Notes under the pieces: model-generated
What the model saw: the letters and a program-made list of their open reading frames with translations, nothing else
What the model was told of the DNA's origin: nothing
Database searches by the model: none
Translations under genes and position numbers: made by a program
DNA from: Schizochytrium sp. TIO01
Lineage: Eukaryota; Sar; Bigyra; Thraustochytrida; Thraustochytriidae
Direction: 5' to 3'
NCBI GenBank assembly: GCA_004764695.1
Contig: SMSO01000007.1
Location: forward strand, 832,001-896,000
Length of the DNA stretch: 64,000 nt
Part shown: piece after piece, positions 41,279-63,193 of the stretch
Numbering within the stretch: the first letter of the stretch is position 1
How the letters are laid out: each line of letters opens with the position of its first letter

Positions 41279-44200
41279 TTAGTTTCCCTTTTTTACTAAG
41301 TTTTTACGAAGAACGATGCGCACCTTACGGCTGGCCTGATTATCCATAGTAAGAACACAATCAACAATGTGTTCACCAATGCTGCCGGGACGATCGATTT
41401 GTAAGGCCAAGGTCAAGGTCACCTTTTCGCCTGGCTTAAGGGCGCCCTTAGGCTTGTCTGCAACTATTGTTTCAGGCGTGCGCACAATTTCATAGCTTCC
41501 ACCACGAGTTGTTGAGCAAGATCCGACGACAATGCGAATTGTCTTGCCGTCAGAAGTATCATCGAAACATCCAACTAAGGTATAGTTTGAGAGGGCAGTA
41601 CCTGCTGAAAATGCAAACTCATTAGCAATACGATCGCGCGGAGCAACCATTCCAACATCAGCCATCCGAGCAAATATGGGATGACTCCAGGCACGACCTT
41701 GAAATCGCAGAGTGTGTTTTCCAATCTGATTTGGGACGTCGACTTCAAAAACACCGAAATGCCCACTGAGACGCTCTTGATCTGGCTCGAAACGAATTTG
41801 AACCTGACGGTTTTCCATTGCAGGGATGCTTGCCTTCTGTTGACCAATCACAAAAACATCTCTCCCCCCAAGGTTTCGAGGGATATTCGCCACCGGGGCC
41901 ACCTTTATTGCGTAGTCAAGGCCAAAGACACTTTTATTCTGAAGATATACATTTTGAGTAGACGACTCGTGAACTAAAACGTCTCCAAAATCGACGACTT
42001 GATCACTTGAAAACATGTTATCGATTCCTTGGCTATTCTCGGAACCATCTGCTGGGTTTTGCAATGAAACACTCAGCTTAGGGCTAACTCCCTCTCCGCA
42101 CAACAGAATATCAAGTTTTGCAGCTTGGCTTCGGATTGTAAATACCTCCTGGAAAGTGCGGTTAGATGATGGGGTGAATTTGATGTTCACAGCATGCGAG
42201 CCATTTACAGGAATATCTCGCAAAGCATTCACCATCATGAATGGACCAACCGGGTTTAAGCTATCCAAAGTTAAATGCGCCATAGTATTGCCAAAGTTGC
42301 GAATGCGCAGCACGAGCGTCTTGGAGTGACCCACCGCCACCTGAGAGAAACGCAGTTCGTCCTGATCTGCAACCAAGTCCGAGTCCACATGCACAGCGTT
42401 CACTTGTAAAGCTAACGGGACCTCGAAGCCCCGAACATGGCAACGCATGAGCCACTCGCAATGTTTACTCCAAGGTTCCCCTTCATCTGGGTTACTCCAA
42501 ACCACGGAGCCTACTTCTGGCGGAATCTCAAATGGATTTTTCTCCTCAGAACTTGCAGCATTGCTGGTTTCATCTGCTACGCCTACCTCTTCATTATTCT
42601 CTGTTGCTGATGCTTCAGTCTCGTTACCATCACCATCTGCAATTGCCTCCGGGTGAGACACGGCATTGGCAAAGGGGCCATCTTTCTCGGATGGTGCTGT
42701 CAACTCAACTTCGATACGAACAACCTCACCAGGATTTAATCTTCCAACCTGCGGGCTGACATGCAACCCATGTGAAAACTTCTTCAGAGGTAAGACGATG
42801 TGGAAGTCTCGAATTTCACGCGACGTGTTTGTCAAGAAGAGACTTTGCGTACGCCGTGTACCTAGAGCGCATGTGTTAAAAGCAACAAGAGTTTGCGAAA
42901 AATGAAGAGGTGGGTCCAATCCAACACCTTTACAAGGAATTTGAAAAGTACGATTAAGACTGGTACGCAGAGTCAAAGAAAAAGCGTACTCGACTGCCGA
43001 AGACGGGCTAAAAATTACCTGCGAAATGATTCTTTCTTTGGGCAAAAGAGTTCCAAAACCATTTGATGGCTCCACACTAACCTGAGGGCGAAGCTTGACA
43101 AAACCAAAACGTTGAGGTAACAAACTAGTGTTTTCTAGCACTAGCGGGCGTTGAACCGACTGTGTAGTGTAGCAAAAGCCAAAGTCAAGGGTGGCAGGAG
43201 AAAGTGCAATCTCACCTGATGTGAGGGTAGCGACTAGAGCTAGTTTTACAGGGAGTACCTGCTCCGGGACATGGATGTTGATGGGAATACTCACCCGAAG
43301 GATTTGACCAAACGTTGCATCTTCTTCCCGTGTGCAGTTATTCGTTTGTGTGCACCAATCGACAATTGCCTGGGAAGGCCGAACCTTAATCTGTACGTCG
43401 AACGAACCATCTTTTGCTCCATCCCTGGCCTGCACAAACCCCATGTCCGGTAAGAATTCGATACAGTCACGCAAAGGTTTTGGTGGTGAAATCTCTGCAC
43501 GTAATGCGACACTGCCCCGATTTCGCAAAACCAGTTTGTTTCTGTACAATTTGCCAAACACGCAACATTGGAAATCAAGTTTCGACGAGGCAGCGTAAAT
43601 TGGCACCTTGCTTGTGGCGGCCACAATTGTACAATGGACATGCTGGCCATCCTTGAAAATAATCTCAAGTGTTTTGCTTATTTCTACAGGACTATCTTCC
43701 TGAGGTCCATAGGTGATACTCATATTTGTCTCATCATAGCCAGTTAACTCGAATTTTACGGGTTCACCCATGGTGAGATCCTTAGAATCATAGCAGTCTC
43801 CTCCTAGTGAGAATGAACAAGGAAGAGCTCCTTCGTTTGCAATCTTTAGCACTAAGGTCTTCGTCTCGCCATGAACCACTGTGCCAAAATCCAGGGTTGA
43901 TTTCGAGAGTGCTGGAATTGTTTTGCGCTTGGTGCATTTAATGGGAACGTTGAATGGTCCAGTGTTGGCCAAAAATGGAAGATTTGCGACAATGTCCTCG
44001 TTCACCTTTGGTTCAAAGTCAACGCGAATTCTGCATGTAAGTCCAGCACTCATTCTACCTGGTTTTTCATATGTCACAGTAAAAAAGTTCTTAATGTCGT
44101 CGGGAAGCTCGAGAAGCTTAAAGCTGTTGAATGTGTATGATACATTTGTCAAGGTAAATGTTTTTGAATAGGACTCACCAACAATAAAGTCTTTGTAATG

Positions 44201-45988
44201 GATAACCGAGGGTTTCACAAGAAAGGCCTGCCCCTCAAACGTTTTACCCCAGACAACCTGGTCTTGTACAACATTTCGCAGCTGCGCCTCTCGAGCCTTT
44301 CGCAACATCTTCTGCTCAAACACACTCAGGTCGCGCGTGGTACCCTTAAATTTATTCCAATTCTGCTCCGCAGGTGACTCCAGAGCCGCAGACGAAACAC
44401 TACTTTGTATGACATCAAGCACAAGCCGACGTTCATCCTCAACTCGGTCATCTCCTTTAAACGAATCGCTAGGATGGAAGGACATACCCGGGGGGGGGCC
44501 TAAAGCAGCATCATTTTGCCGCTCAAGAATACGAGCTTCTGCATCCACTCCTCCACGGGGTTGCTTACCCTCTTCCTCCAGTTGCCGACGCTGGGCGACG
44601 GCAGCTTGAGATAGCTTTCTTTTATCTGCTTTCGGGGCTCCTGTTGGATTAAGATGCTCGGGAGGAATAAAGGGACGAAGGCGAGCCGGTATGAGTGAGC
44701 CGATCGGTTCAATACCTGCATTTGCTGGTTGTGCAGCAATCTTATCAACAATATCACTTCTTTCACGCTGCACGTTTCCAAGCCCAAAAGCATGTGTCTT
44801 CATGACAGTTACCTGGCTAGGCTCAACACGAAACGCACGTCCCGACGGATCGATCGAGTCCACCCCGCCGATTGTTCTAGACCGCATATATTCAAGGGTT
44901 CGCTCTTCTGCTGCATGGCGACCGAGAGATTTAGTGTACTGGTCCTCATAAGCCTTTTCTTTGGCTTCTTGTGAATCTTTTACACGGTTGTATTCATCAA
45001 AAGCTAGCATTTTTTTCATGAGCTGCATCTCTGACTGCTTGAGTCGAAGTTGTATCCGTTCCTTGGCGCTTTTCACTCTTGCATCCTGTTTTCGCCGACG
45101 AAAGACTTCATAAGGATTCCCTCCTGCTTCAAGGATCTCATTGAATTCCTCTTGCTCTCGTTGGGCCACCCGTGCTTCCTGCGCTTTACGCTGTGCAATT
45201 TTGCCTGCCATTTCTGCCTGAATAGTTTCTGTCGAGCGCTTTAACTGAAGAATTGCACGCGCGCGACGCTCGTGATCTTGGCTGTGTTGTGCCTCAACAC
45301 TTTCTAACAAGTTTTGAGTTGCCTTTTTGTTGGCCTGGACGCGCTTACGAGCCTTCTCTCGCTCTTTCTGAGCAGCCTCTACGCGCGACTCGTCCTCAGC
45401 ACGTTGTGCTTCCGCCTCGTGCAATGCCATATTGGCATCAGCACGGCGCATTCGCAAAAATTGTTTACCAACTTTACCTTCATTCGCTGCACGTAGGGCT
45501 GCAGCTTCTCGGAGGACTGCTTCGTTTTCTGTGACTTGCTTGCGTAGTGCTTCTGCCACAGGTCGAAGTTTGTGTAGCCGCACAACAGCAATGTCGCGGA
45601 GTCTTTCTGCCTCATCCATAGCCCGCGATGCCTCCTTTACACGCGACTGGAGCTCACGTAGGTTAAACTTTTCTGGTGTTGCATGTGTAGCTGCTTCTTC
45701 GTACGCACATCGCTCCTCGTTGAGGTGTTCCCTGGCCTCTTGGAGTGCCCTTGTGCGATGTTTGACTTCGACTTCAGCCTGTTCTGCTTGCGCCAGCTGC
45801 TGGCGAATCGCACGGTCCTCCTGGCAAGCAGCTAGCGATTTATGCACATTCACCACACCGCCAACGACATGTCTCTCGATGGCCTTTTCGCGAGCTTCTG
45901 CCTTTCGCTGTGCAATCTCCTGCTCTTGTGCAGCTTTCTGCTCCTCTGTATTCCCAAGTTCTGCACTGTGTGCATCCAGCGAGTCCAT
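41279..45988 (-). CDS. CFAP74: CFAP74-like central-pair ciliary protein
   Basis: A 1569-residue protein, close to the ~1580 residues of human CFAP74. In Chlamydomonas FAP74 belongs to the C1d projection of the axonemal central pair with FAP46, FAP54 and FAP221, so the host should build motile flagella. Residues ~15-350 form a charged coiled coil (RKAEAREKAIERH, KSAKERIQLRLKQSEMQLMK). A linker follows with GRHAAEERTLEYMRSRTIGG and PARLRPFIPPEHLNPTGAPK. From ~586 to the end come repeated ASH/MSP-type beta-sandwiches: YKDFIVGESYSKTFTLTNVS, STLDFGTVVHGETKTLVLK, ATLDFGFCYTTQSVQRPLVL, DELRFSQVAVGHSKTLVLRI, VVDFGDVLVHESSTQNVYLQ. The frame runs five codons beyond the ATG at 45988 without another ATG. 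HYDIN-type ASH proteins are the alternative, but size and the N-terminal coil favour CFAP74. Confidence 0.85.
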   Translation of the reverse strand: MDSLDAHSAELGNTEEQKAAQEQEIAQRKAEAREKAIERHVVGGVVNVHKSLAACQEDRAIRQQLAQAEQAEVEVKHRTRALQEAREHLNEERCAYEEAATHATPEKFNLRELQSRVKEASRAMDEAERLRDIAVVRLHKLRPVAEALRKQVTENEAVLREAAALRAANEGKVGKQFLRMRRADANMALHEAEAQRAEDESRVEAAQKEREKARKRVQANKKATQNLLESVEAQHSQDHERRARAILQLKRSTETIQAEMAGKIAQRKAQEARVAQREQEEFNEILEAGGNPYEVFRRRKQDARVKSAKERIQLRLKQSEMQLMKKMLAFDEYNRVKDSQEAKEKAYEDQYTKSLGRHAAEERTLEYMRSRTIGGVDSIDPSGRAFRVEPSQVTVMKTHAFGLGNVQRERSDIVDKIAAQPANAGIEPIGSLIPARLRPFIPPEHLNPTGAPKADKRKLSQAAVAQRRQLEEEGKQPRGGVDAEARILERQNDAALGPPPGMSFHPSDSFKGDDRVEDERRLVLDVIQSSVSSAALESPAEQNWNKFKGTTRDLSVFEQKMLRKAREAQLRNVVQDQVVWGKTFEGQAFLVKPSVIHYKDFIVGESYSKTFTLTNVSYTFNSFKLLELPDDIKNFFTVTYEKPGRMSAGLTCRIRVDFEPKVNEDIVANLPFLANTGPFNVPIKCTKRKTIPALSKSTLDFGTVVHGETKTLVLKIANEGALPCSFSLGGDCYDSKDLTMGEPVKFELTGYDETNMSITYGPQEDSPVEISKTLEIIFKDGQHVHCTIVAATSKVPIYAASSKLDFQCCVFGKLYRNKLVLRNRGSVALRAEISPPKPLRDCIEFLPDMGFVQARDGAKDGSFDVQIKVRPSQAIVDWCTQTNNCTREEDATFGQILRVSIPINIHVPEQVLPVKLALVATLTSGEIALSPATLDFGFCYTTQSVQRPLVLENTSLLPQRFGFVKLRPQVSVEPSNGFGTLLPKERIISQVIFSPSSAVEYAFSLTLRTSLNRTFQIPCKGVGLDPPLHFSQTLVAFNTCALGTRRTQSLFLTNTSREIRDFHIVLPLKKFSHGLHVSPQVGRLNPGEVVRIEVELTAPSEKDGPFANAVSHPEAIADGDGNETEASATENNEEVGVADETSNAASSEEKNPFEIPPEVGSVVWSNPDEGEPWSKHCEWLMRCHVRGFEVPLALQVNAVHVDSDLVADQDELRFSQVAVGHSKTLVLRIRNFGNTMAHLTLDSLNPVGPFMMVNALRDIPVNGSHAVNIKFTPSSNRTFQEVFTIRSQAAKLDILLCGEGVSPKLSVSLQNPADGSENSQGIDNMFSSDQVVDFGDVLVHESSTQNVYLQNKSVFGLDYAIKVAPVANIPRNLGGRDVFVIGQQKASIPAMENRQVQIRFEPDQERLSGHFGVFEVDVPNQIGKHTLRFQGRAWSHPIFARMADVGMVAPRDRIANEFAFSAGTALSNYTLVGCFDDTSDGKTIRIVVGSCSTTRGGSYEIVRTPETIVADKPKGALKPGEKVTLTLALQIDRPGSIGEHIVDCVLTMDNQASRKVRIVLRKNLVKKGN

Positions 45989-46555
45989 CTTCGCCACAGC
46001 CAAGCCACCTCCTCAAGAGCGTCCAGCGCAGGGCTTCCAGTCAGGGTTACTCCGACACGTTATGCCCCTTAACTTTCCCCGAGGCGGCCCGAAATAACCT
46101 AATTCCTGCGCTTGCGATGCACAGTGCTTGTGCGCAGGCATGTTCTCCAAGCTCAAACGGTCTTCTTTATTTGACCAACTATCCACAGGAAAACTGTCCC
46201 TTTTACCCCCTTCCGCCATCTCGACATGAGGAAGTAGGAATCGGATAGTATCATTTAGGAGAGGCGAGGCCAGGTGTTCTATTCTCTTGTTCAAAGATTA
46301 AACATAGGAACGTACTATGTACTTTTTATCTTTTTGCCATCTCCTTTTTTATTTTTTGAGGATTTGGTAAATTCCTAGATCGTAGGATATTTGTCGCACT
46401 CACAGAAGCGTTTCTCAGACAGATTGGAAGCGGATCGAGAGCTACTGCTGCTTTTGCTGTTGCCGGTGGTGTGTTTGGGGCAAAACCGTATTGACAAGGA
46501 GCCGAGACCAGACTGGACTTGTGGTGCTGACGGATAGAAACTCTTGCAAAAGAGG
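45989..46555. other. Divergent promoter region, CFAP74 / lactonase
   Basis: A 567-bp gap between two divergent genes, so it probably holds both promoters. No element is recognised with confidence. Confidence 0.5.
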
Positions 46556-48026
46556 ATGTCGCTCTTCGTGGGATGCTGTAGGTTCACTGGCCAAACGTGA
46601 CGAAACAGAGGAACTCAATATGCGTGGTGCGGCGTGACGTGTCGTGACGTGACGTGACATAGCCAGCATGTTGTTTATAGATTGCAATAGTTCTTGGCGA
46701 CTTGTTTGCCTTTGTGAATGTATCTTAGGACATGCAATCGAGAGACTTGTGTAGATGCGAGGATGAAAGTGCAAACAGAGACTAACTTCAACAACCTGAA
46801 TGCACATATGCACATGATCACGACTGTATTTGCACGTGCTAATAATTTAATTGTCATTTCTTCTAATACTGGAAAATTGGATTCGCCAAACAGATGGCAA
46901 GACGCTCGACTTTGTCGAGGCACATGGTGATGGAATTGGCTACTTTTCTGTAGAGAATGGCAAAGTGGAGTTACAAAGCATTCTGAGGTTCAAAGATAAG
47001 AGCGCAGGAGAGGTGCCTGAAAACCCGTCCTATCTTGCAGTTCACCCATCCCTTCCGGTGCTCTATGCTACGGAAGAGCTTCCTGACGAAGGTTTTGTCT
47101 GGGTCTTCGACATTGACACCAAGACTAAGACATTGTCCGTAGCTGGTCGCGAGTCTACGTGTGGCACGAGTGCCGCAATGCTAAGTGTATCCAAAGATGA
47201 GAAGCTCTTGTACACAGTCAATTACTCAAGTGGACCTGCGATGGTCTTTAGTCTCGATGAGCAAGGTCATATTGAAAATGCCGTTTCGAAGTTAGAGTGC
47301 ATCAGTGATCGTGAGTATCCTGGACCAAACAAGGGGCGCCAGGATAGGCCGCATCCGCATATGCATGTCGAAGACTTTACTGCCCCGGAGCGCCTCTCTC
47401 TCGTGCCTGACCTGGGCGCTGATTGTGTACACGAGTTCAGCTTAGATGAAAATGGCAACCAAATTGCAGAGAGCCAAGCTCTGCTGCCGCTAGGCTCTGG
47501 CCCGCGCCACCTTGTGATTTGCTCTTCAGATCGTGCACGTCTTGTACTTTGTGAGCTTACAACGATGCTCTGCGTGGTCCCTTGCAAGGAGAAACGGTCT
47601 GACATCCCTGATTCATCTTTGCAGGATGCCACACAGATGCTTTCCGTTATTGACGGAAGTGATCAAGTGAACTCTGATTCAGAGTGGACTGCTTCAGCAA
47701 TTAACCTGCACCCGAACGAACGGTTTGTCTTTTGCTCAGTTCGTGCTACAGATGCGTCTCGAAATGGTCGCATAGGCGTTTTTGAGGTTCACTCTCACAA
47801 AGAAGAAGGAACTCGCCTGGAGTTCAAGTGCTGCATTGATAGCCTTGGTAAGTGTCCTCGTGAAATGAAGCTTGACTCTACAGGAGACTTTCTCTTTGTC
47901 GCACACCAAGATTCCAACAATATCGAGTGCTTTGCAGTAAACCCTGAAACGGGCGAGCTTTCACGAGATAGCTCCCGAAGCTTTGAGTTTAAAACCCCTG
48001 TGGCTCTCTGTTTTAGTCAGCATTAA
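46556..48026 (+). CDS. Lactonase-type seven-bladed beta-propeller, two exons
   Basis: Homologue of the lactonase / YbhE-type 6-phosphogluconolactonase family, propellers that hydrolyse sugar lactones or resemble muconate-cyclising enzymes. The long frame (46851-48026) has no ATG for its first ~100 codons, so a start lies upstream. Exon 1 at 46556-46577 encodes MSLFVGC plus one base before a GTAGGT donor. The intron ends in CAG at 46893, and exon 2 from 46894 completes a Tyr codon. The joined start, MSLFVGCYGKTLDFVEAHGD, continues into GIGYFSVENG and fits the family's first strand (FVGxYT...GIxxF). The product is 384 residues. Blade motifs include NPSYLAVHPSLPVLYATEE, CGTSAAMLSVSKDEKLLYTV, RPHPHMHV, GSGPRHLVI, AINLHPNERFVFCSVR and PREMKLDSTGDFLFVAHQDS. 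The RPHPH and GPRHL blocks are the conserved active-face residues. Cytosolic location is likely, as no signal peptide is seen. Confidence 0.85.
46578..46893 (+). other. Predicted phase-1 intron of the lactonase gene
   Basis: A 316-nt intron from GTAGGT to CCAAACAG, with a branch-point-like CTAAT about 30 nt before the 3' end. It restores an ATG start and a family-like N-terminus, which is good internal support. Confidence 0.75.
46634..46659. repeat. (GTGAC)n pentamer with tandem TGACGT
   Basis: Units of GTGAC recur five times, one as GTGTC, creating three TGACGT hexamers and one TGACAT. TGACGT is the half-site core of bZIP/CREB-type factors, but a plain microsatellite explains it equally well. 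It lies inside the predicted intron. Confidence 0.7.
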
Positions 48027-48638
48027 AAATCCTTGAGAACTCAAACCAAAGTAGCGTGAGATATTGGAGAGAAAAAAGGAAATCAATTCTTCAAATTATT
48101 TTATTTCCATGAACTATGCGTTCAAGATTGCTTAAAGAAAGACAAGTAAAAGCTCTTTGTTTGTTTTCGGTCCCCAGAGACATACAGTTGTTCTAATGCA
48201 AGAGTAAAGGAATCTTGCATTAGTCGCGCCCGCTACTCTAAAAAGCCAATACATTCATTTGTACCACGTGTTAGGTGTTCATGGGTACTGTACATTTTAT
48301 GCGCAGAAGTTTTCACCTTGTTAGGGTACTTGTACTCCTGTTAATGTTTATTCGTGGTGCTGCTTGTTCCAAGGTCAAAGCTCTCAGAATTTGACGAGTA
48401 CATAGTAAAGATGAAATCCCACTCCAAGTCATCCTGGCATACGTTTGCCCCAATTCTACTTGAATCCATAATGGTTTCCCTTTATCCTAGTACCAGTTTC
48501 CCGATCATGACACGAAGCTTTGCCTCAAGTGGAAAACCAAATACCATGCTCGTTTTGCCATTACGTAAACTTTGAAGTTAAAAAATGCACGCGAAGATGA
48601 ATGAGTGAGCGAAACAAAAATGCAAATCAAATTTGGCC
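48027..48638. other. Spacer between two plus-strand genes
   Basis: No gene is supported. It should contain the lactonase 3' end and the promoter of the next gene. Confidence 0.5.
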
Positions 48639-50312
48639 ATGAGGGCTTGCAGAAGCTGGGCAGCGACAAGAAGCTGCAAGTTTGGCGAAGAATGCCGATT
48701 TGCACACGGTGTTAGTAGCGGTGATTCACGAGGAGGCCTCCGTGGCCGCTCTCAGGGCTATGGCGCAAGGTCGCAAAGCCAAATCGCCCAAAGTGGGAGG
48801 CCTTCAGATGGTGCCTTCAGAGGAAGCCAACGGCGCAGGGGCCGTGGCATGGTGACCTCGAGGCCGCGAGGATTAGCAAGGAGCTGGGTGCAAAAACCCA
48901 GAACAGTTGATAGTACTTCAAGACGGAATAATACAGAAACGACAAGGTTGCAGGCCAAGAGTCAGACATCGTCTCAGCCAGGCAGCAGCGAAATGGCCCC
49001 AATGACCCCTGGAAGAAATGCAAATACATCTGCAAATGGGTCCCATGAATTCACTTTGCTTAACTTCAATATTCTGGCAGACTGCCTTGTAGACCACACG
49101 CACTATCCTGGGACAGGAGATGAAGCCCTTGCCTGGAAGGAACGTGCACCTCGCATTTTGAAACATATTACGCAGGAAGTTCGTCCAGATGTTCTGTGCT
49201 TGCAGGAGGTAGATGCAGAGCACTTCGCCTCGACTTTTGACGAAAAACTTGCTTCTTATGGGTATATGGGGCACTTCAAGAAACGCACACGTGACAAGAT
49301 TGATGGGTGTGCTGTGTGGTTTCGCAAGAGTGCGTTTCGCTTGCTCGAGGAGGTTCCTGTGGAGTTTTTTGTGGCTGAGGATCACATTCTTGATCGCGAT
49401 AATGTGGCACTCGCACTTGTCCTTGAGCATTGCGCTCCAGGAGCCCAGCAGGAGAGGCTCATTGTTTGCACGACCCACTTGCTCTTCAACCCGCGTCGAG
49501 GCGAGGTCAAACTTGCTCAACTTATGATGCTCTTCGAGACAGTACGGGATATTCGTGGTAGATACCCCGATGCTAGGCTTTGCCTTTGTGGTGACTTTAA
49601 TTCAACTCCCAAGTCAGCTATTTACGAATTTCTCACCACGGGAGAACTTAATCATCTCCGAGCTCATAACCCTACCCATATGAGTGCTCAGGGACTCATC
49701 ATTGCTGCTTGCAAGCGTGAACAGTCTATTCACTACAATATGTACGGTCCACACGGGCCTGCAGGTACCTTTATTGGCCGGTACCAGCCCCCTAAGAACA
49801 TACCCCAGGATGCTGATGAGCATAGTCAACCTGGCTCTGAGGAGGAAAATGCTTGTGTGGATGATGAGCAAGTGGACAATGATATTAATAATATTGAATA
49901 TGGAAGTGGAGATGAAGGAGAGGACGATGGTTTTACCAATCCTGATATAAAGCGAATACTCGAGCAATTTGCAGAGTCTGAAGGCATTTCCAAGAGTGTA
50001 GTGTTGACAAAGCGTAGGAAACGGTCTAAATCATTTGGCAATTTGCCAGATAAAGTCGAAACTGGAGTCGAACCTTTAAAAAGTGCTTATGCCTTCAAAC
50101 CAACCCGAAGTTCTACAGGAGAACCTGCTTTTACAACCTACCATGAAACTTTCAAAGGTACTGTTGATTATGTATTCTATGGGAACGGACTATCTGCAGA
50201 GGAGGTCCTGGAATTGCCGCATGCAAAAGCATATGGACGTGGCATTCCCAGCACAGAATGGGGCTCAGATCATATGAGCTTAGGGGTGCGCTTTCAATTT
50301 AAGCCTTTATAA
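48639..50312 (+). CDS. CCCH zinc finger fused to ANGEL/CCR4-type EEP nuclease
   Basis: A 557-residue protein from the ATG at 48639. A CCCH finger opens it (Cys4-x8-Cys13-x5-Cys19-x3-His23), followed by an Arg/Gly-rich stretch (GGLRGRSQGYGARS, RRRGRGMVTSRPRG) suited to RNA binding. From ~137 comes an endonuclease/exonuclease/phosphatase domain: LLNFNILADCLVDH, LCLQEVD with Glu190 as metal ligand, THLLFNPRRGEVKLAQ, LCGDFNSTP (Asp319, Asn321) and GSDHMSL (Asp544, His545). THLLFNPRRGxxKLAQ is characteristic of the ANGEL branch of CCR4/nocturnin-like enzymes. Members act as poly(A) deadenylases; human ANGEL2 is a 2',3'-cyclic-phosphate phosphatase. An acidic insertion (~400-450, DNDINNIEYGSGDEGEDDG) precedes the last strands, and basic KRRKRSKS may be nuclear-targeting. 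All catalytic residues I can check are present. Confidence 0.9.
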   Translation: MRACRSWAATRSCKFGEECRFAHGVSSGDSRGGLRGRSQGYGARSQSQIAQSGRPSDGAFRGSQRRRGRGMVTSRPRGLARSWVQKPRTVDSTSRRNNTETTRLQAKSQTSSQPGSSEMAPMTPGRNANTSANGSHEFTLLNFNILADCLVDHTHYPGTGDEALAWKERAPRILKHITQEVRPDVLCLQEVDAEHFASTFDEKLASYGYMGHFKKRTRDKIDGCAVWFRKSAFRLLEEVPVEFFVAEDHILDRDNVALALVLEHCAPGAQQERLIVCTTHLLFNPRRGEVKLAQLMMLFETVRDIRGRYPDARLCLCGDFNSTPKSAIYEFLTTGELNHLRAHNPTHMSAQGLIIAACKREQSIHYNMYGPHGPAGTFIGRYQPPKNIPQDADEHSQPGSEEENACVDDEQVDNDINNIEYGSGDEGEDDGFTNPDIKRILEQFAESEGISKSVVLTKRRKRSKSFGNLPDKVETGVEPLKSAYAFKPTRSSTGEPAFTTYHETFKGTVDYVFYGNGLSAEEVLELPHAKAYGRGIPSTEWGSDHMSLGVRFQFKPL

Positions 50313-58099: not shown

Positions 58100-61000
58100 T
58101 TATACTCGCAGAGACTTGGCCGGTGCCCAAACCTGAACAATATTGTTCTCCGCAGTTGATACAATACACCAAGGGTCGTCAGGGCACCATGAAATGTCAA
58201 ACACCTTATCTGTATGGCCACCATGCACAAAAAGAAGCTCTGGAGGACCATCAATATTGTTGTTGCCTTTGTCCTTGCTGCTGGAATTGCTTCCACGAGC
58301 ATCCCAAATACAGACGTGACCATCTTCACCACAGGAGGCAACAAGATGAGGCAAATAGGGGTTCCAGCTAATTCCTAACACATCCCCACGGTGATGCAAT
58401 AAAGACATTGTAGGGCGATCGCCCTTGCGCCGATCCCAGAATTCCACAGTGCCATCACTACGACCTGTCACGAAACAATTCTCATTAGTAGGGGAGAAAC
58501 TCATGCAGTTGATGCTAAGGGAAGTATCAGCGGCAGCGCCTTTGCCTTTGGGTGGTTGACTAGATCCAAAAGATGAAAGACGGTTTTGGCGAATATCGCC
58601 AAAGCTGATTGTTGCACTGTCATCGACACACGCAAACTCATTGGCTGATTGAAAAACCCATTGAACTTCATTCACAGAAATGCCTTGAAGATCATCATAA
58701 TGAATGAGCTCTCGCTTGCGATGCAGGTCCCAGCAGGCGACAAGACCGTCATCGCTACTCGAGAGCAAGGCACCACGTCTAACATTGTTCCAACTTAAGC
58801 CATAACCAGGTTCTGTGTGCACCGTCCGAATCGTAAAGGCCGAAACGACATCAGAAAGACTTGGGTTAACACGAACTATCTGGATATCAGTTGTTGCTGA
58901 AAAGCAAGCTGCAACGTACGGATCCTGTGGCATTGTGCGTACTCGGTGAATATCAGAACCAATTTCGAAACGAGCTCCGAACTTGATATCGCCCATATAG
59001 GATCCACAGAAGTTTCCCTCACTCAATGCCAACTGTTCATTTTCACAGGAAGAGGTTTCCTGCGGAAGTTGCACTGTGGTGATGGCGATTTCGTCTCCCT
59101 TGCTGCCATCGCTGCGATTAGATCCACACCAAAACGCCGAACGGGGGGCGGTGTACTCGTTCATTGGGATCCACGAGCAACTAAGAGCCGGCCAATAAAG
59201 TTGTTGTGTGATAACAAAGTCGTACAGGATTGGAGCATACTTTGCCCACAAAGCATATTCTTGAGTACCTTCGACATCATTCTCGTTGGCTACGATTGCG
59301 TTTGCCATCTCCTGCGGGTCCTTCACAACACAACGTGCTTCCCGCTCACCGCGGGTGAGAGGTACTGTCTCGTCGCTTGCTGATGAGATTGACATGGCAT
59401 CATCTTCATCATCACTTTTGATGAGGGCATCTTGAAGAGAGGTGAACAAGGACACTTCAGGACGAGCTGTGCCACGATTCCGTGAGAACTTCCGTACAGA
59501 AGTACTTTTCCCAGCGACAGCACTCTCCAGCTGCTTTCCACCGCCCTGTGTACCTCCCTGCACAATAATTTGACCATCTTCATTAGTTGCGATTGTAATG
59601 CCAGCATCCTCAACAAGCTTTCGAACATCGACAATAGGAACAGGGATTGCTCGCCCACGATGAGGTCCAAATTTAATCACATCTTCAGGATCATGTCGTT
59701 CATCTTCATCAACCGTAAATAAGAGCTTTCGCATTTTACCCCCCTTTTTGAAAAAACTTGGCGGAAAGTGGGTCCAGCGAACATAAACGTCCTTTCTCTT
59801 CAAGTTCGTTACATCCTCGTCAGAGGCTCCCAAGTGCGCCAACCATCGCTCACGCAGATTTACGCCACCCTTGTTGCTTTGTCCTTTAGGGATTGCAGAC
59901 ATTGTGCCGGCCAGCCATTCATAACCCTTCGCAGCCAAAACACCTTCAGCTTCGCGGCACAGTCCTGCTGGTGTGTTACACTGTGTGAGCTCACAAACAC
60001 AGGAAGCAGTGTTGTAGTGCCGAGAAGTCTGAGAAGTGTCAATGCCGTCATCTGCGTTGTCAGCTGACTGGCTAGTGGTTGCTGCTTCCGAGCCTTTTCC
60101 GGTATTAGATTTGCCCTTCTCCTTGTCTTTCTTCCTTTTCTTTGGCTTAGATTCGGCGTCTTCCTTTTTGGATTTAGAAGGCTTCGGCTCCTTTGCATTA
60201 TTTTTCTTGGACTCCTCAGAAGATTTTGAGCTCTTTTTACCATTTGGTTGAGGGGTACTATCCGCAGGGGTTGCAGGCAGTGCAACCTCAGGTAAGTCCT
60301 TGAGATCCTCCTCGATATTGACCAACGGCACAGGAATAGCTTGGCCACGATACTTGCCATACTGGGCAATGTCATCCTGCGTGTGGCGATCGTCCGCATC
60401 GACCATAAATTTTAGCTTGCGCATGTTTTTATCGGTAAGAGAAAAGAAGCTCGGTGGGAAGTGAGTCCAACGCACATCCACGTTGCGAAATCCAAGGCTG
60501 CCGACCTGCTCTTCGGTGATTCCAAGGTGGGCCAGCCACCGCTCTCGGAGGTTGATGCCGTTACGCGCACCGCCAGCTTTTGGTAAATGCACCGAGAGGC
60601 CTTCGAGCCACTCGTTACCATTGGCTGCCAACCGAGGTTCAACTTCCTTACAAATTCCAGGACGAGAATAGATGTCAATGAGCTCACAGACACAGGAACT
60701 CTTGCGGTACTTAAACTTGACGTCCTTTTTAGAGTCATTACCATTCTCCTCTGCATTGGAGGCGGCCTCGTCGTCTGACGCAGCATCAGCACCCAAAGGT
60801 GGAGCGCCTTCCTTGAGAACACTTGTATTTGGCATTGGGGCATCCTCGGCACTAGGGGCAGGAATACCAGGCCCAATCTTAGCGCAAGGAACAGGTACAG
60901 CCATTGTGTCAGTGAACATATCTTCAGGCAGATGTCCGGGATGAACCGGGACGCTCTTTCGCAAGCGGCGCATTTGCCGGTGTTTGGTGCCAATCATGCG

Positions 61001-63193
61001 GAAGAAAGACGCTGGGAAATGTGTCCAGCGGACATGTACGGTTTTACGATTAAGAGTAGCAAGCTGCTCCTCAGTAATGCCGAGATGCTCGATCCAGCGC
61101 TCGCGAAGCTTGATACCGCCAAGTTCCTGACCAAAGGCAGGGAGCTGAATCGTTAGTCCCTCCAGCCAGGTTAGACCATTCTGGGCCGCTTCGCCTTCTA
61201 CCAATTTACAGTACCCCGACGGTACGTTACATGGAAGAAGTTCACAGACACAGGTAGGACCAGAGTTCATACCACTCCGCGTCCGCCTAGAACGTGATGA
61301 TGACGGAGTTTTGCTATCGCCAGATGATCTTTGCTTTTTCGGAGTAGTCAACCCATCCTCGTCATTTTCACCATCACCATCGTCTTCGGAGTTCTTTCCA
61401 TCCTCACCATCGCCATCCTCCCTATCACTTTCGCCACTAAGATCCATATCATCGTCACCCTCACCCGCAGCTCCTTCCGGAACTTCGGCCTCTTCAGGCC
61501 GTAGAGGCTCCTTGAACTCAACCTTTGAGTCTTTGAGTTTCATACACGGTACAGGAACACCCCGACCACGATGCTGACCAAACTGCAGAATATCTTCGGG
61601 TTCATGTTCTGGCACAACCTCGACAGTATGTAAAAGTCGTCGCGATTTGCTTCCCGTCTTGCTAAAGAAATAAGGATGGAAGTGCGTCCAACGAACTTGG
61701 ATATGTGCACGGTTAAGTTCCTGAATCTCGGCCTCCGTTACGCCAAGATGGGCTAGCCAACGCTCGCGCATGTTAATCTTGCCTATAACGGCAGATTCCC
61801 GAGGGAGTTGCGACATGAGCCCTGCAAGGCGACCGTAGCCTAGATCTTCAAGCTGGCTTTCCGCTAACCGGCACATGCCTGCAGTGCTCGTTGTCGGTAA
61901 AAGTTCGCACAAGCATGCATTCTGGTTTTGATACATGCTGCTACGTCTTTTGCCTTGGGTAGAGCTCTTATCGTCGGATTTAGATTTGGAGGCTTTCGCT
62001 GGTGTTGACTTTTTGTCATGCTTTTTCTTCTGTCGCTGCTCTCCCGCCTCAGAAGACATTGCCGCTTCTTCGGCCTTACGCTTCTGTGAATTTCTCTTTT
62101 GTTTCGCGGCAGCGTTCTTCTTTTCCTTCTCCTTTTCCGCATTCCGTTTATTTTTGGCACGTGCCTTTGTTGCGAGTACTCTCTGCAATCTCGAAGTCAG
62201 CTTGATGGGTTGCATATCTGGAGAGAGCTTCTGACTCGGGATGGGAATGCCCTTTCCGAAGTTTGGTCCTGCCTTGATAATTTGTTTGTTCGTGTGGGAA
62301 GAGCTCTTCGAAACTGTGGGTACAAGCCTCCAAGGGCGTTTTGTCCCGAGCTTGAAGTTTTGTAGTGGAAAGTGAGTCCATCGGATCACAAGAGGTTCAC
62401 TAATGTCCCCAAGGTCCTCCTCGCTCACCTGAAGTTGCTCCAGCCAGCTGGTTCTCAGATCGACACCCTCCTTCTTTATACCTGCCTCCGGCATCTTTAT
62501 CATCTTTCCGAGAAATTGCGCAAAGGTGTCGCAGTCAGGACCTGCTACGGCCCCTGCTTCTGCTTCGCGACAGAGGCCTGCCGCTGTTTTTGCCTTGACT
62601 AATTCGCAGATACATTTGAGGTCATGGCCCTCGATGGTTTCAACGCCATACAGCTCACCCTCATCTTCGCCGTCTTCATCTTCGTCTTCGTTATCGCCAG
62701 CGTTGTTCTCGTCAATCTCTTTTTCACCAGTCTCGCCTGAACTTTGAGCAGCACTTTCTTCTTTGTCCTTTTCAGACTCTGCCTGGGCTTCCTCAACTCC
62801 AGATTTCCCTTCGTCCTTCATATCAGATGCCTTGGGTGACTTCTTCTTGTCGTCATCTGCTTTGTTATCTTCGGCAGGAGATTTAGAAGATTCATCATCC
62901 TTGCTCTCGCTCTTCTTTTCGTCATCCTTGTCACCCTCAGCATCATCCATCTTAGAGTCCTCATCAGCTTTATTAGCTTCAGCGCTTTCGGGCTTTTCCA
63001 CCTTTTCCTTGTCAGAAGTGTCAGATTTGTCATTCTTCACAGCACTTTCTTCGCCTTTCTTCTCTTCATCATCATTGATCTTGCTGCTCTCTTCGGAGTC
63101 CACTTCCACCTTGACAGCGTCATTTTCGGTGTCCTTTTCAGGTCCTTTTTCAGAGACTTTTGGGGAGTCCTTTTCGAGGTCGTTATCACCCAT
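58100..63193 (-). CDS. Five-copy novel CxCEL/RWTHF domain protein fused to RBBP4/MSI1-like WD40
   Basis: A 1697-residue protein with ATG at 63193. Residues 1-185 are an acidic Lys/Glu/Asp/Ser tail. Five copies of a ~125-130-residue domain I do not recognise begin near 192, 425, 646, 832 and 1063; the first Cys of each is 194, 427, 648, 834 and 1065. The shared pattern is CxCEL, then G-x-C-[KR], then RERW[LI]xHLG (degenerate in copy 1), VRWTHFP, R[KR]L and RG[RQ][AG][IV]PVP. Linkers are acidic or Lys/Ser-rich. Residues ~1308-1697 are a WD40 propeller of the RBBP4/RBBP7/MSI1/p55 class. Its start (YALWAKYAPILYDFVITQ, WPALSCSWIP) matches the histone-binding N-terminal helix, and its end (PPELLFVHGGHTDKV, DPWCIVSTAENNIVQVW) matches the last blades. 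RBBP4-type proteins carry histones into CAF-1, HDAC, PRC2 and NURF complexes. A chromatin role is therefore likely; the repeated domain's role is unknown. Confidence 0.9.
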   Translation of the reverse strand: MGDNDLEKDSPKVSEKGPEKDTENDAVKVEVDSEESSKINDDEEKKGEESAVKNDKSDTSDKEKVEKPESAEANKADEDSKMDDAEGDKDDEKKSESKDDESSKSPAEDNKADDDKKKSPKASDMKDEGKSGVEEAQAESEKDKEESAAQSSGETGEKEIDENNAGDNEDEDEDGEDEGELYGVETIEGHDLKCICELVKAKTAAGLCREAEAGAVAGPDCDTFAQFLGKMIKMPEAGIKKEGVDLRTSWLEQLQVSEEDLGDISEPLVIRWTHFPLQNFKLGTKRPWRLVPTVSKSSSHTNKQIIKAGPNFGKGIPIPSQKLSPDMQPIKLTSRLQRVLATKARAKNKRNAEKEKEKKNAAAKQKRNSQKRKAEEAAMSSEAGEQRQKKKHDKKSTPAKASKSKSDDKSSTQGKRRSSMYQNQNACLCELLPTTSTAGMCRLAESQLEDLGYGRLAGLMSQLPRESAVIGKINMRERWLAHLGVTEAEIQELNRAHIQVRWTHFHPYFFSKTGSKSRRLLHTVEVVPEHEPEDILQFGQHRGRGVPVPCMKLKDSKVEFKEPLRPEEAEVPEGAAGEGDDDMDLSGESDREDGDGEDGKNSEDDGDGENDEDGLTTPKKQRSSGDSKTPSSSRSRRTRSGMNSGPTCVCELLPCNVPSGYCKLVEGEAAQNGLTWLEGLTIQLPAFGQELGGIKLRERWIEHLGITEEQLATLNRKTVHVRWTHFPASFFRMIGTKHRQMRRLRKSVPVHPGHLPEDMFTDTMAVPVPCAKIGPGIPAPSAEDAPMPNTSVLKEGAPPLGADAASDDEAASNAEENGNDSKKDVKFKYRKSSCVCELIDIYSRPGICKEVEPRLAANGNEWLEGLSVHLPKAGGARNGINLRERWLAHLGITEEQVGSLGFRNVDVRWTHFPPSFFSLTDKNMRKLKFMVDADDRHTQDDIAQYGKYRGQAIPVPLVNIEEDLKDLPEVALPATPADSTPQPNGKKSSKSSEESKKNNAKEPKPSKSKKEDAESKPKKRKKDKEKGKSNTGKGSEAATTSQSADNADDGIDTSQTSRHYNTASCVCELTQCNTPAGLCREAEGVLAAKGYEWLAGTMSAIPKGQSNKGGVNLRERWLAHLGASDEDVTNLKRKDVYVRWTHFPPSFFKKGGKMRKLLFTVDEDERHDPEDVIKFGPHRGRAIPVPIVDVRKLVEDAGITIATNEDGQIIVQGGTQGGGKQLESAVAGKSTSVRKFSRNRGTARPEVSLFTSLQDALIKSDDEDDAMSISSASDETVPLTRGEREARCVVKDPQEMANAIVANENDVEGTQEYALWAKYAPILYDFVITQQLYWPALSCSWIPMNEYTAPRSAFWCGSNRSDGSKGDEIAITTVQLPQETSSCENEQLALSEGNFCGSYMGDIKFGARFEIGSDIHRVRTMPQDPYVAACFSATTDIQIVRVNPSLSDVVSAFTIRTVHTEPGYGLSWNNVRRGALLSSSDDGLVACWDLHRKRELIHYDDLQGISVNEVQWVFQSANEFACVDDSATISFGDIRQNRLSSFGSSQPPKGKGAAADTSLSINCMSFSPTNENCFVTGRSDGTVEFWDRRKGDRPTMSLLHHRGDVLGISWNPYLPHLVASCGEDGHVCIWDARGSNSSSKDKGNNNIDGPPELLFVHGGHTDKVFDISWCPDDPWCIVSTAENNIVQVWAPAKSLRV

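Follow-up and report, generated by a model that had tools for sequence, protein, structure and literature searches.

A single open reading frame in a 64,000-nucleotide stretch of the Schizochytrium sp. TIO01 genome (contig SMSO01000007.1; this whole stretch is referred to below as the window) encodes five copies of a unit of about 137 residues fused to a WD40 propeller of the RBBP4/MSI1 type. Sequence comparison and structure prediction indicate that the units are most likely diverged relatives of the THAP domain, and we propose, with moderate confidence, that the product is a nuclear scaffold protein in which five THAP-like fingers and an RBBP4/MSI1 propeller, all of them diverged, form a one-chain adaptor between DNA and a partner.

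Architecture of the fused protein

The frame (58100-63193, minus strand) runs uninterrupted for 1,697 codons from its ATG (1,736 codons from stop to stop), bearing out the claim of an earlier note on this DNA that the fusion is one continuous frame. It encodes, in order, an acidic N-terminus, the five units, a linker and the propeller (Table 1); the linkers between units are of low complexity (49-96 residues each), and the N-terminus and most of the linkers are long and charged. The acidic region described earlier as a tail is present, and lies at the N-terminus. An outside source has a 1,697-aa protein, on a 5,645-base contig of RNA or DNA, with a single difference (aa 1390, L/W) over all 1,697 residues. 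Because this near-identical protein exists, the fusion is not peculiar to the present assembly.

The boundaries of the units are our own and were set from motif positions. Searched against the genome (64.06 Mb, 37 contigs), unit 5 recovers the other four at E values of 6e-42, 6e-39, 8e-29 and 7e-23, far beyond chance, which confirms that this is a repeated unit in five diverged copies (27-50% identity between aligned pairs). The motifs first used to describe it hold to differing degrees: CxCEL...GxC is present in all five units; RERWxxHLG occurs in four, unit 1 having RTSWLEQLQ; the RWTHF core of VRWTHFP is found in all five and the literal motif in three (unit 1 has IRWTHFP and unit 2 VRWTHFH); and for the closing RGxxxPVP, every unit ends in [VI]P[VI]P, with the preceding RG in just three.

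Single-unit paralogs in the same genome

Six further genes carry one unit each: L014 and L017 (contig C30), L015 (C13), L016 (C5), L018 (C31) and L019 (C32). A Pfam scan of these six frames found no WD40 match, and genome searches with L016, L017 and L019 recover the same eleven domains, on which all counts below are based. A marginal twelfth unit on C13 (L059, 1243-3486, minus strand; E 0.047 in the L019 search) is left out of them; its 748-codon frame, which is rich in Gln and His, has, by eye, CLC, LP, RTRWLAALGISEDE and AHF in the correct order and a heptad-like C-terminal tail. Two still weaker places were returned by the L019 and L017 queries (C5:441565, E 1.4; C7:192313, E 0.45). At least one paralog is transcribed, because L016 is 99% identical over 99% of its length to a protein in JGI, MMETSP and EukProt that is named as an MMETSP transcript. 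Aurantiochytrium limacinum is represented by proteomes in both JGI and MMETSP (PMC12221091), and the genome is probably that of this species or of a close relative.

In a tree of the domains, L017 stands beside unit 3 (87/92), one of the eight inner branches is starred, and 8% of 200 bootstrap trees unite the five fused units in a group of their own. Duplication of a single THAP-like domain within this lineage is the probable origin of the family. L015, L016 and L018 show weak, sub-threshold matches to coiled-coil families downstream of the domain; a coiled-coil region is conserved in human THAP proteins as well (PMC6402169). The single-unit gene at L014:898-2289 (minus strand) has a long unbroken polyglutamine run near its C-terminus.

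Probable relationship of the unit to the THAP domain

We place the unit near THAP because the paralogs link it there by Pfam match, by profile comparison and by predicted fold. Scanned against the six-frame translated genome, the Pfam THAP profile (PF05485) gives a single match, to the L016 unit (27.4 bits, cut-off 23.9), in a search whose first pass let through one candidate, so that weaker matches could be missed. Within the six paralog frames, four match the same part of the profile at E values up to 0.016, L016 alone exceeding the cut-off.

The landmarks of THAP are a C2CH consensus, the residues P, W and F, and an AVPTIF box (as set out in PMC6004289). In unit 4 numbering, P46, W61, H86 and F87, together with C9, C11 and C23, are invariant in all eleven aligned domains (the three key THAP residues thus being P46, W61 and F87, with L059 outside the count), and the order P-W-(C)xxHF is kept. 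This order of P, W, zinc His and F is shared with the known domains compared (human THAP1, THAP2 and THAP11, P-element THAP 3kde and Caenorhabditis elegans CtBP 2jm3). Profile-profile comparison with human THAPs (THAP1, THAP2 and a THAP11 fragment) gives a score of 19.6 (probability 4%) for the five fused units, 25.9 (30%) for the eleven domains and 30.3 (61%) for L014, L015, L016 and L018; in each of the three tests none of 200 column shuffles reaches the observed score (means 10.7-11.2, maxima 18.2-20.1). Weak sequence scores are normal within THAP, because human THAP1, searched against the Protein Data Bank (PDB), itself finds THAP11 at just 17.6 bits, the P-element and CtBP THAPs being unlisted at E values up to 10.

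The check proposed in the earlier note, to model a unit with AlphaFold and compare it by Foldseek, was run on units 4 and 5, and for both models the P-element THAP is the first and only credible match in the PDB. The unit 4 model aligns to 71 of the 74 residues of 3kde, and the predicted structures appear to have the beta-alpha-beta fold of THAP. The earlier view that no known domain matches the unit is therefore withdrawn in the light of the Pfam match of a paralog, the profile comparison and the predicted fold, with the proviso that a significant match to a named domain is found for L016 and for none of the five fused units.

Possible ligand changes and the label THAP-like

We use the label THAP-like, not THAP, because the C2CH set is broken in all five fused units, the first two Cys are spaced C-x-C, the AVPTIF box appears largely lost and Pfam is blind to the fused units. 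Three positions ahead of the His, L014-L018 carry Cys, whereas L019 and the five fused units carry Arg; the C2CH set ending in C-x2-H is thus kept in five of the six single-unit paralogs and in none of the fused units. There is also an extra invariant Cys, which in unit 4 lies 12 residues beyond the first pair. By eye, only fragments of the AVPTIF box are seen (for example RRLRKSVP in unit 3 and RRMKKRVP in L018) and nowhere the complete box, which is variable among Kolobok transposases too, being conserved in 17/38 and 12/24 (PMC6004289). The unit is, in addition, longer than the approximately 90 residues given for THAP (PMC3688188).

With Arg at the classical third Cys position of every fused unit, we propose an alternative ligand set. 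Three Cys and one His are still invariant, so a four-ligand site is possible, and the fused units may hold zinc through C9, C11, C23 and H86 (unit 4 numbering). These remaining residues, conserved in all eleven domains, would bind zinc, and they suit the metal-binding fold suggested in the earlier note. Its suggestion that RWTHF is a reader surface fares less well: RWTHF aligns with the C-x2-H-F strand of THAP, which from that alignment would supply a zinc ligand and part of the core, and we have dropped the reader pocket for this reason.

The propeller

As first described, a full RBBP4/MSI1-type propeller is fused to the repeats: residues 1310-1694 match human RBBP4 chains (best 9koh_K, 7.8e-66), and Pfam recognises both the CAF1C_H4-bd region (PF12265, 45.6 bits; cut-off 22.7) and WD40 (60.9 bits; cut-off 27). 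Alignment with human RBBP4 is nearly end to end, with 131 of 367 aligned residues identical, and the fused protein stops directly beyond the last blade. The canonical RBBP4 is a separate gene, L023 (221/389 identical to human RBBP4).

Ten residues of RBBP4, belonging to its acidic top pocket, are listed as contacting FOG-1 or ZNF512B peptides (E41, D74, E75, E126, N128, E179, E231, N277, D318 and E319; PMC11602157). The fused propeller keeps two, the eight changes including E126D and E319D, whereas L023 keeps seven, plus E319D. The PP loop, whose acidic character helps to hold histones (PMC10679446), reads GEEQSPEDAEDGPPELLF in human RBBP4 and GSNSSSKDKGNNNIDGPPELLF, largely neutral, in the fused propeller; L023 keeps PEDAEDG. 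The description of this part as a histone chaperone propeller is thus doubtful, given a canonical L023, the altered contacts and the mostly lost acidic loop, and we have dropped a canonical chaperone role because the ligand surfaces have changed. We read the fused propeller from its sequence as an RBBP4 duplicate with an altered ligand, for which the histone chaperone label is not warranted.

Proposed function and comparison with known systems

From the parallel with animal THAP and DREAM proteins we favor a multivalent chromatin-bound adaptor, with fingers on DNA and propeller on a partner complex; the chromatin scaffold of the earlier note is thereby kept as a best guess at function. The protein would be located in the nucleus. 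Its fingers, folded around zinc, would engage DNA multivalently, each of them with low affinity or relaxed specificity, and at the site so occupied the propeller would dock a partner complex of the deacetylase, methyltransferase or MuvB type. One chain would in this way perform what animal THAP factors and RBBP4-containing complexes do in pieces.

HIM-17 of C. elegans resembles the fused protein in having several THAP-type domains in one chromatin-associated protein. HIM-17 is not known to have an RBBP4 propeller, and we are aware of no published protein in which five fingers of this kind are combined with a propeller of the RBBP4 type (our literature searches were narrow). HIM-17 is described as a nematode transcription factor whose six THAP domains, all in a single chain, were identified with the Pfam profile (PMC9757741). 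LIN-36 and LIN-15B, together with DREAM-MuvB (RBBP4/LIN-53), likewise bring a THAP-type module and an RBBP4-type propeller together on chromatin (PMC8552245), as separate polypeptides, whereas here the two are fused. The sole hint of DREAM in this genome is a gene of the Rb family (L038, G000:C24:526285-526752; a frame of 1,169 codons whose B-box, PF01857, scores 87 bits); the LIN9 marker DIRP has no match in the genome, in a search whose positive control was likewise silent.

Accounts of THAP domains come mainly from animals and the DNA transposons of animals (PMC3688188, PMC10027918), with one in a choanoflagellate (PMC10027918) and, according to the title of a work cited in PMC6004289, Kolobok transposons in Trichomonas. 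Eleven THAP-like domains in seven genes, with a marginal twelfth in an eighth, would widen this range in a thraustochytrid (the host being a probable stramenopile) and would supply a variant of THAP in which the zinc ligands have changed. Fused genes frequently point to a functional link; provided that a working partnership lies behind this fusion, it agrees with the proposed action of THAP domains through RBBP4-containing DREAM, and it offers both parts as one purifiable chain. A fuller history, possible but put forward only tentatively, is that a THAP-related finger was taken into a stramenopile, multiplied five-fold, switched its zinc ligands (Arg for the third Cys, an upstream Cys instead) and was fused to a duplicated RBBP4 to give a one-chain multivalent DNA-to-corepressor adaptor. 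If true, two kinds of part that act together in nematode DREAM repression, there as distinct proteins, would have been fused independently, possibly as evidence of a direct and ancient working relation between THAP-type domains and RBBP4-type propellers.

Alternative explanations

Several results weigh against relationship to THAP. None of the five fused units matches a Pfam family at E values up to 10. The Foldseek scores (Z) of both models are middling, and 67 of the 138 residues of unit 4 remain unaligned to 3kde. Searches of PDB sequences never rank THAP first: the five-unit profile has no match; the L016 domain has three weak matches, none a THAP; the eleven-unit profile has eight, two of them THAP (E 1.1 and 1.4); and the four-paralog profile has three, with THAP2 (E 0.12) tied with dehydroquinate dehydratase. 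Such results are what would be expected of an undescribed zinc-binding domain that resembles THAP through convergence on a short core, but we consider this improbable, since sequence (the Pfam THAP match of a paralog) and fold (two unit models) agree on THAP, the P-W-(C)xxHF order is kept, and shuffled columns never reach the observed scores. The main rival to the favored adaptor accepts THAP-like descent and takes the fingers off DNA: the units would now be protein- or RNA-binding modules, and the whole a multivalent protein scaffold. The Arg for Cys replacement in every fused unit, the long charged N-terminus and linkers and the strong divergence of unit 1 speak for it, as does the suggestion that THAP domains may mediate interactions with DREAM itself (PMC8552245). 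We nevertheless judge it less likely, because substitute ligands may be present in all eleven domains, the unit 4 model is confident (pLDDT 88.8), and basic residues are, by eye, kept in the RKL/RRL segment behind the WTHF strand.

Two further explanations concern the gene itself. The repeats and the propeller could be two genes or transcripts read as one frame, and codon-position GC bias does weaken in two of the five linkers (units 1-2 and units 4-5); the first-position GC excess persists in the other three, including that preceding the propeller, and this, with the stop-free frame and the full-length outside protein, makes a gene-model artefact highly improbable. Least probable of all is a recently domesticated or still mobile relative of P- or Kolobok-type transposases, which also carry THAP domains (PMC6004289, PMC9757741): the Pfam scans of the six paralog frames and the fused protein found no transposase family, and PF21787 (RNaseH-like transposase) has no match genome-wide, although the control genomes are silent for it too.

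Searches for relatives elsewhere

The protein database searches were length-limited and word-based, and the first two given here were also capped and possibly crowded by low-complexity words, so that absence elsewhere is not implied by them. With residues 185-1280, the 7,985 candidates scored yielded only the near-identical protein (P0002); with the six aligned paralog frames, the 7,999 scored yielded only the counterparts of L017 (P0003) and L016 (P0004); and the L016 domain alone, with 61 candidates at E values up to 10, yielded only P0004. No relatives were found among 32 pattern stretches in viral contigs or 72 in prokaryote genome contigs, and the best of 13 rows from a viral structure library has a probability of 0.11. 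NCBIfam gave no match, and the window has none in Rfam at gathering scores. Where literature matching was loose (any two terms), no entry among the matches listed names THAP, which does not imply absence from print. The repeat first called undescribed became placeable once paralogs from the same genome were added.

Feature coordinates and other genes

Table 1. Features of the fused gene (positions in the window)
Feature	Position	Strand	Evidence
Whole open frame, 1,697 aa, read as single exon	58100..63193	minus	Frame reading; near-identical outside protein
Acidic low-complexity N-terminal region, aa 1-185	62639..63193	minus	39% D+E, 16% K+R, 9% hydrophobic
THAP-like unit 1, aa 186-322, most diverged copy	62228..62638	minus	Alignment; genome search; longest end branch in tree
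THAP-like unit 2, aa 419-556	61526..61939	minus	Alignment; genome search
THAP-like unit 3, aa 640-776, 45% identical to single-unit gene L017	60866..61276	minus	Alignment; genome search; tree
THAP-like unit 4, aa 826-963	60305..60718	minus	AlphaFold pLDDT 88.8, pTM 0.82; first PDB match THAP
THAP-like unit 5, aa 1057-1193	59615..60025	minus	AlphaFold pLDDT 71.3; first PDB match THAP
Linker, unit 5 to propeller, aa 1194-1304 (111 residues)	59282..59614	minus	Composition
Diverged RBBP4/MSI1-type WD40 propeller with CAF1C_H4-bd N-terminal region, aa 1305-1697	58103..59281	minus	Pfam; PDB sequence; alignment

Elsewhere in the genome, a PfaA-type polyunsaturated fatty acid (PUFA) synthase (L036 and L037, G000:C4:608161-617209) scores over the cut-off (1157.4 bits with neighbours in frame) and is split over two successive frames of 1,031 and 2,172 codons, with the break between the parts that match profile positions 6-953 and 1289-2577; the split may be genuine or an error of the assembly. 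Among eukaryotes, a synthase of this type points to thraustochytrids. The window also contains a CFAP74-like flagellar protein with several Ig-like domains above Pfam cut-offs (41282-46003, minus strand), a lactonase-type seven-bladed propeller protein (46851-48023, plus strand; PF10282, 208.7 bits), and an endonuclease/exonuclease/phosphatase protein with an N-terminal CCCH zinc finger (48633-50309, plus strand).
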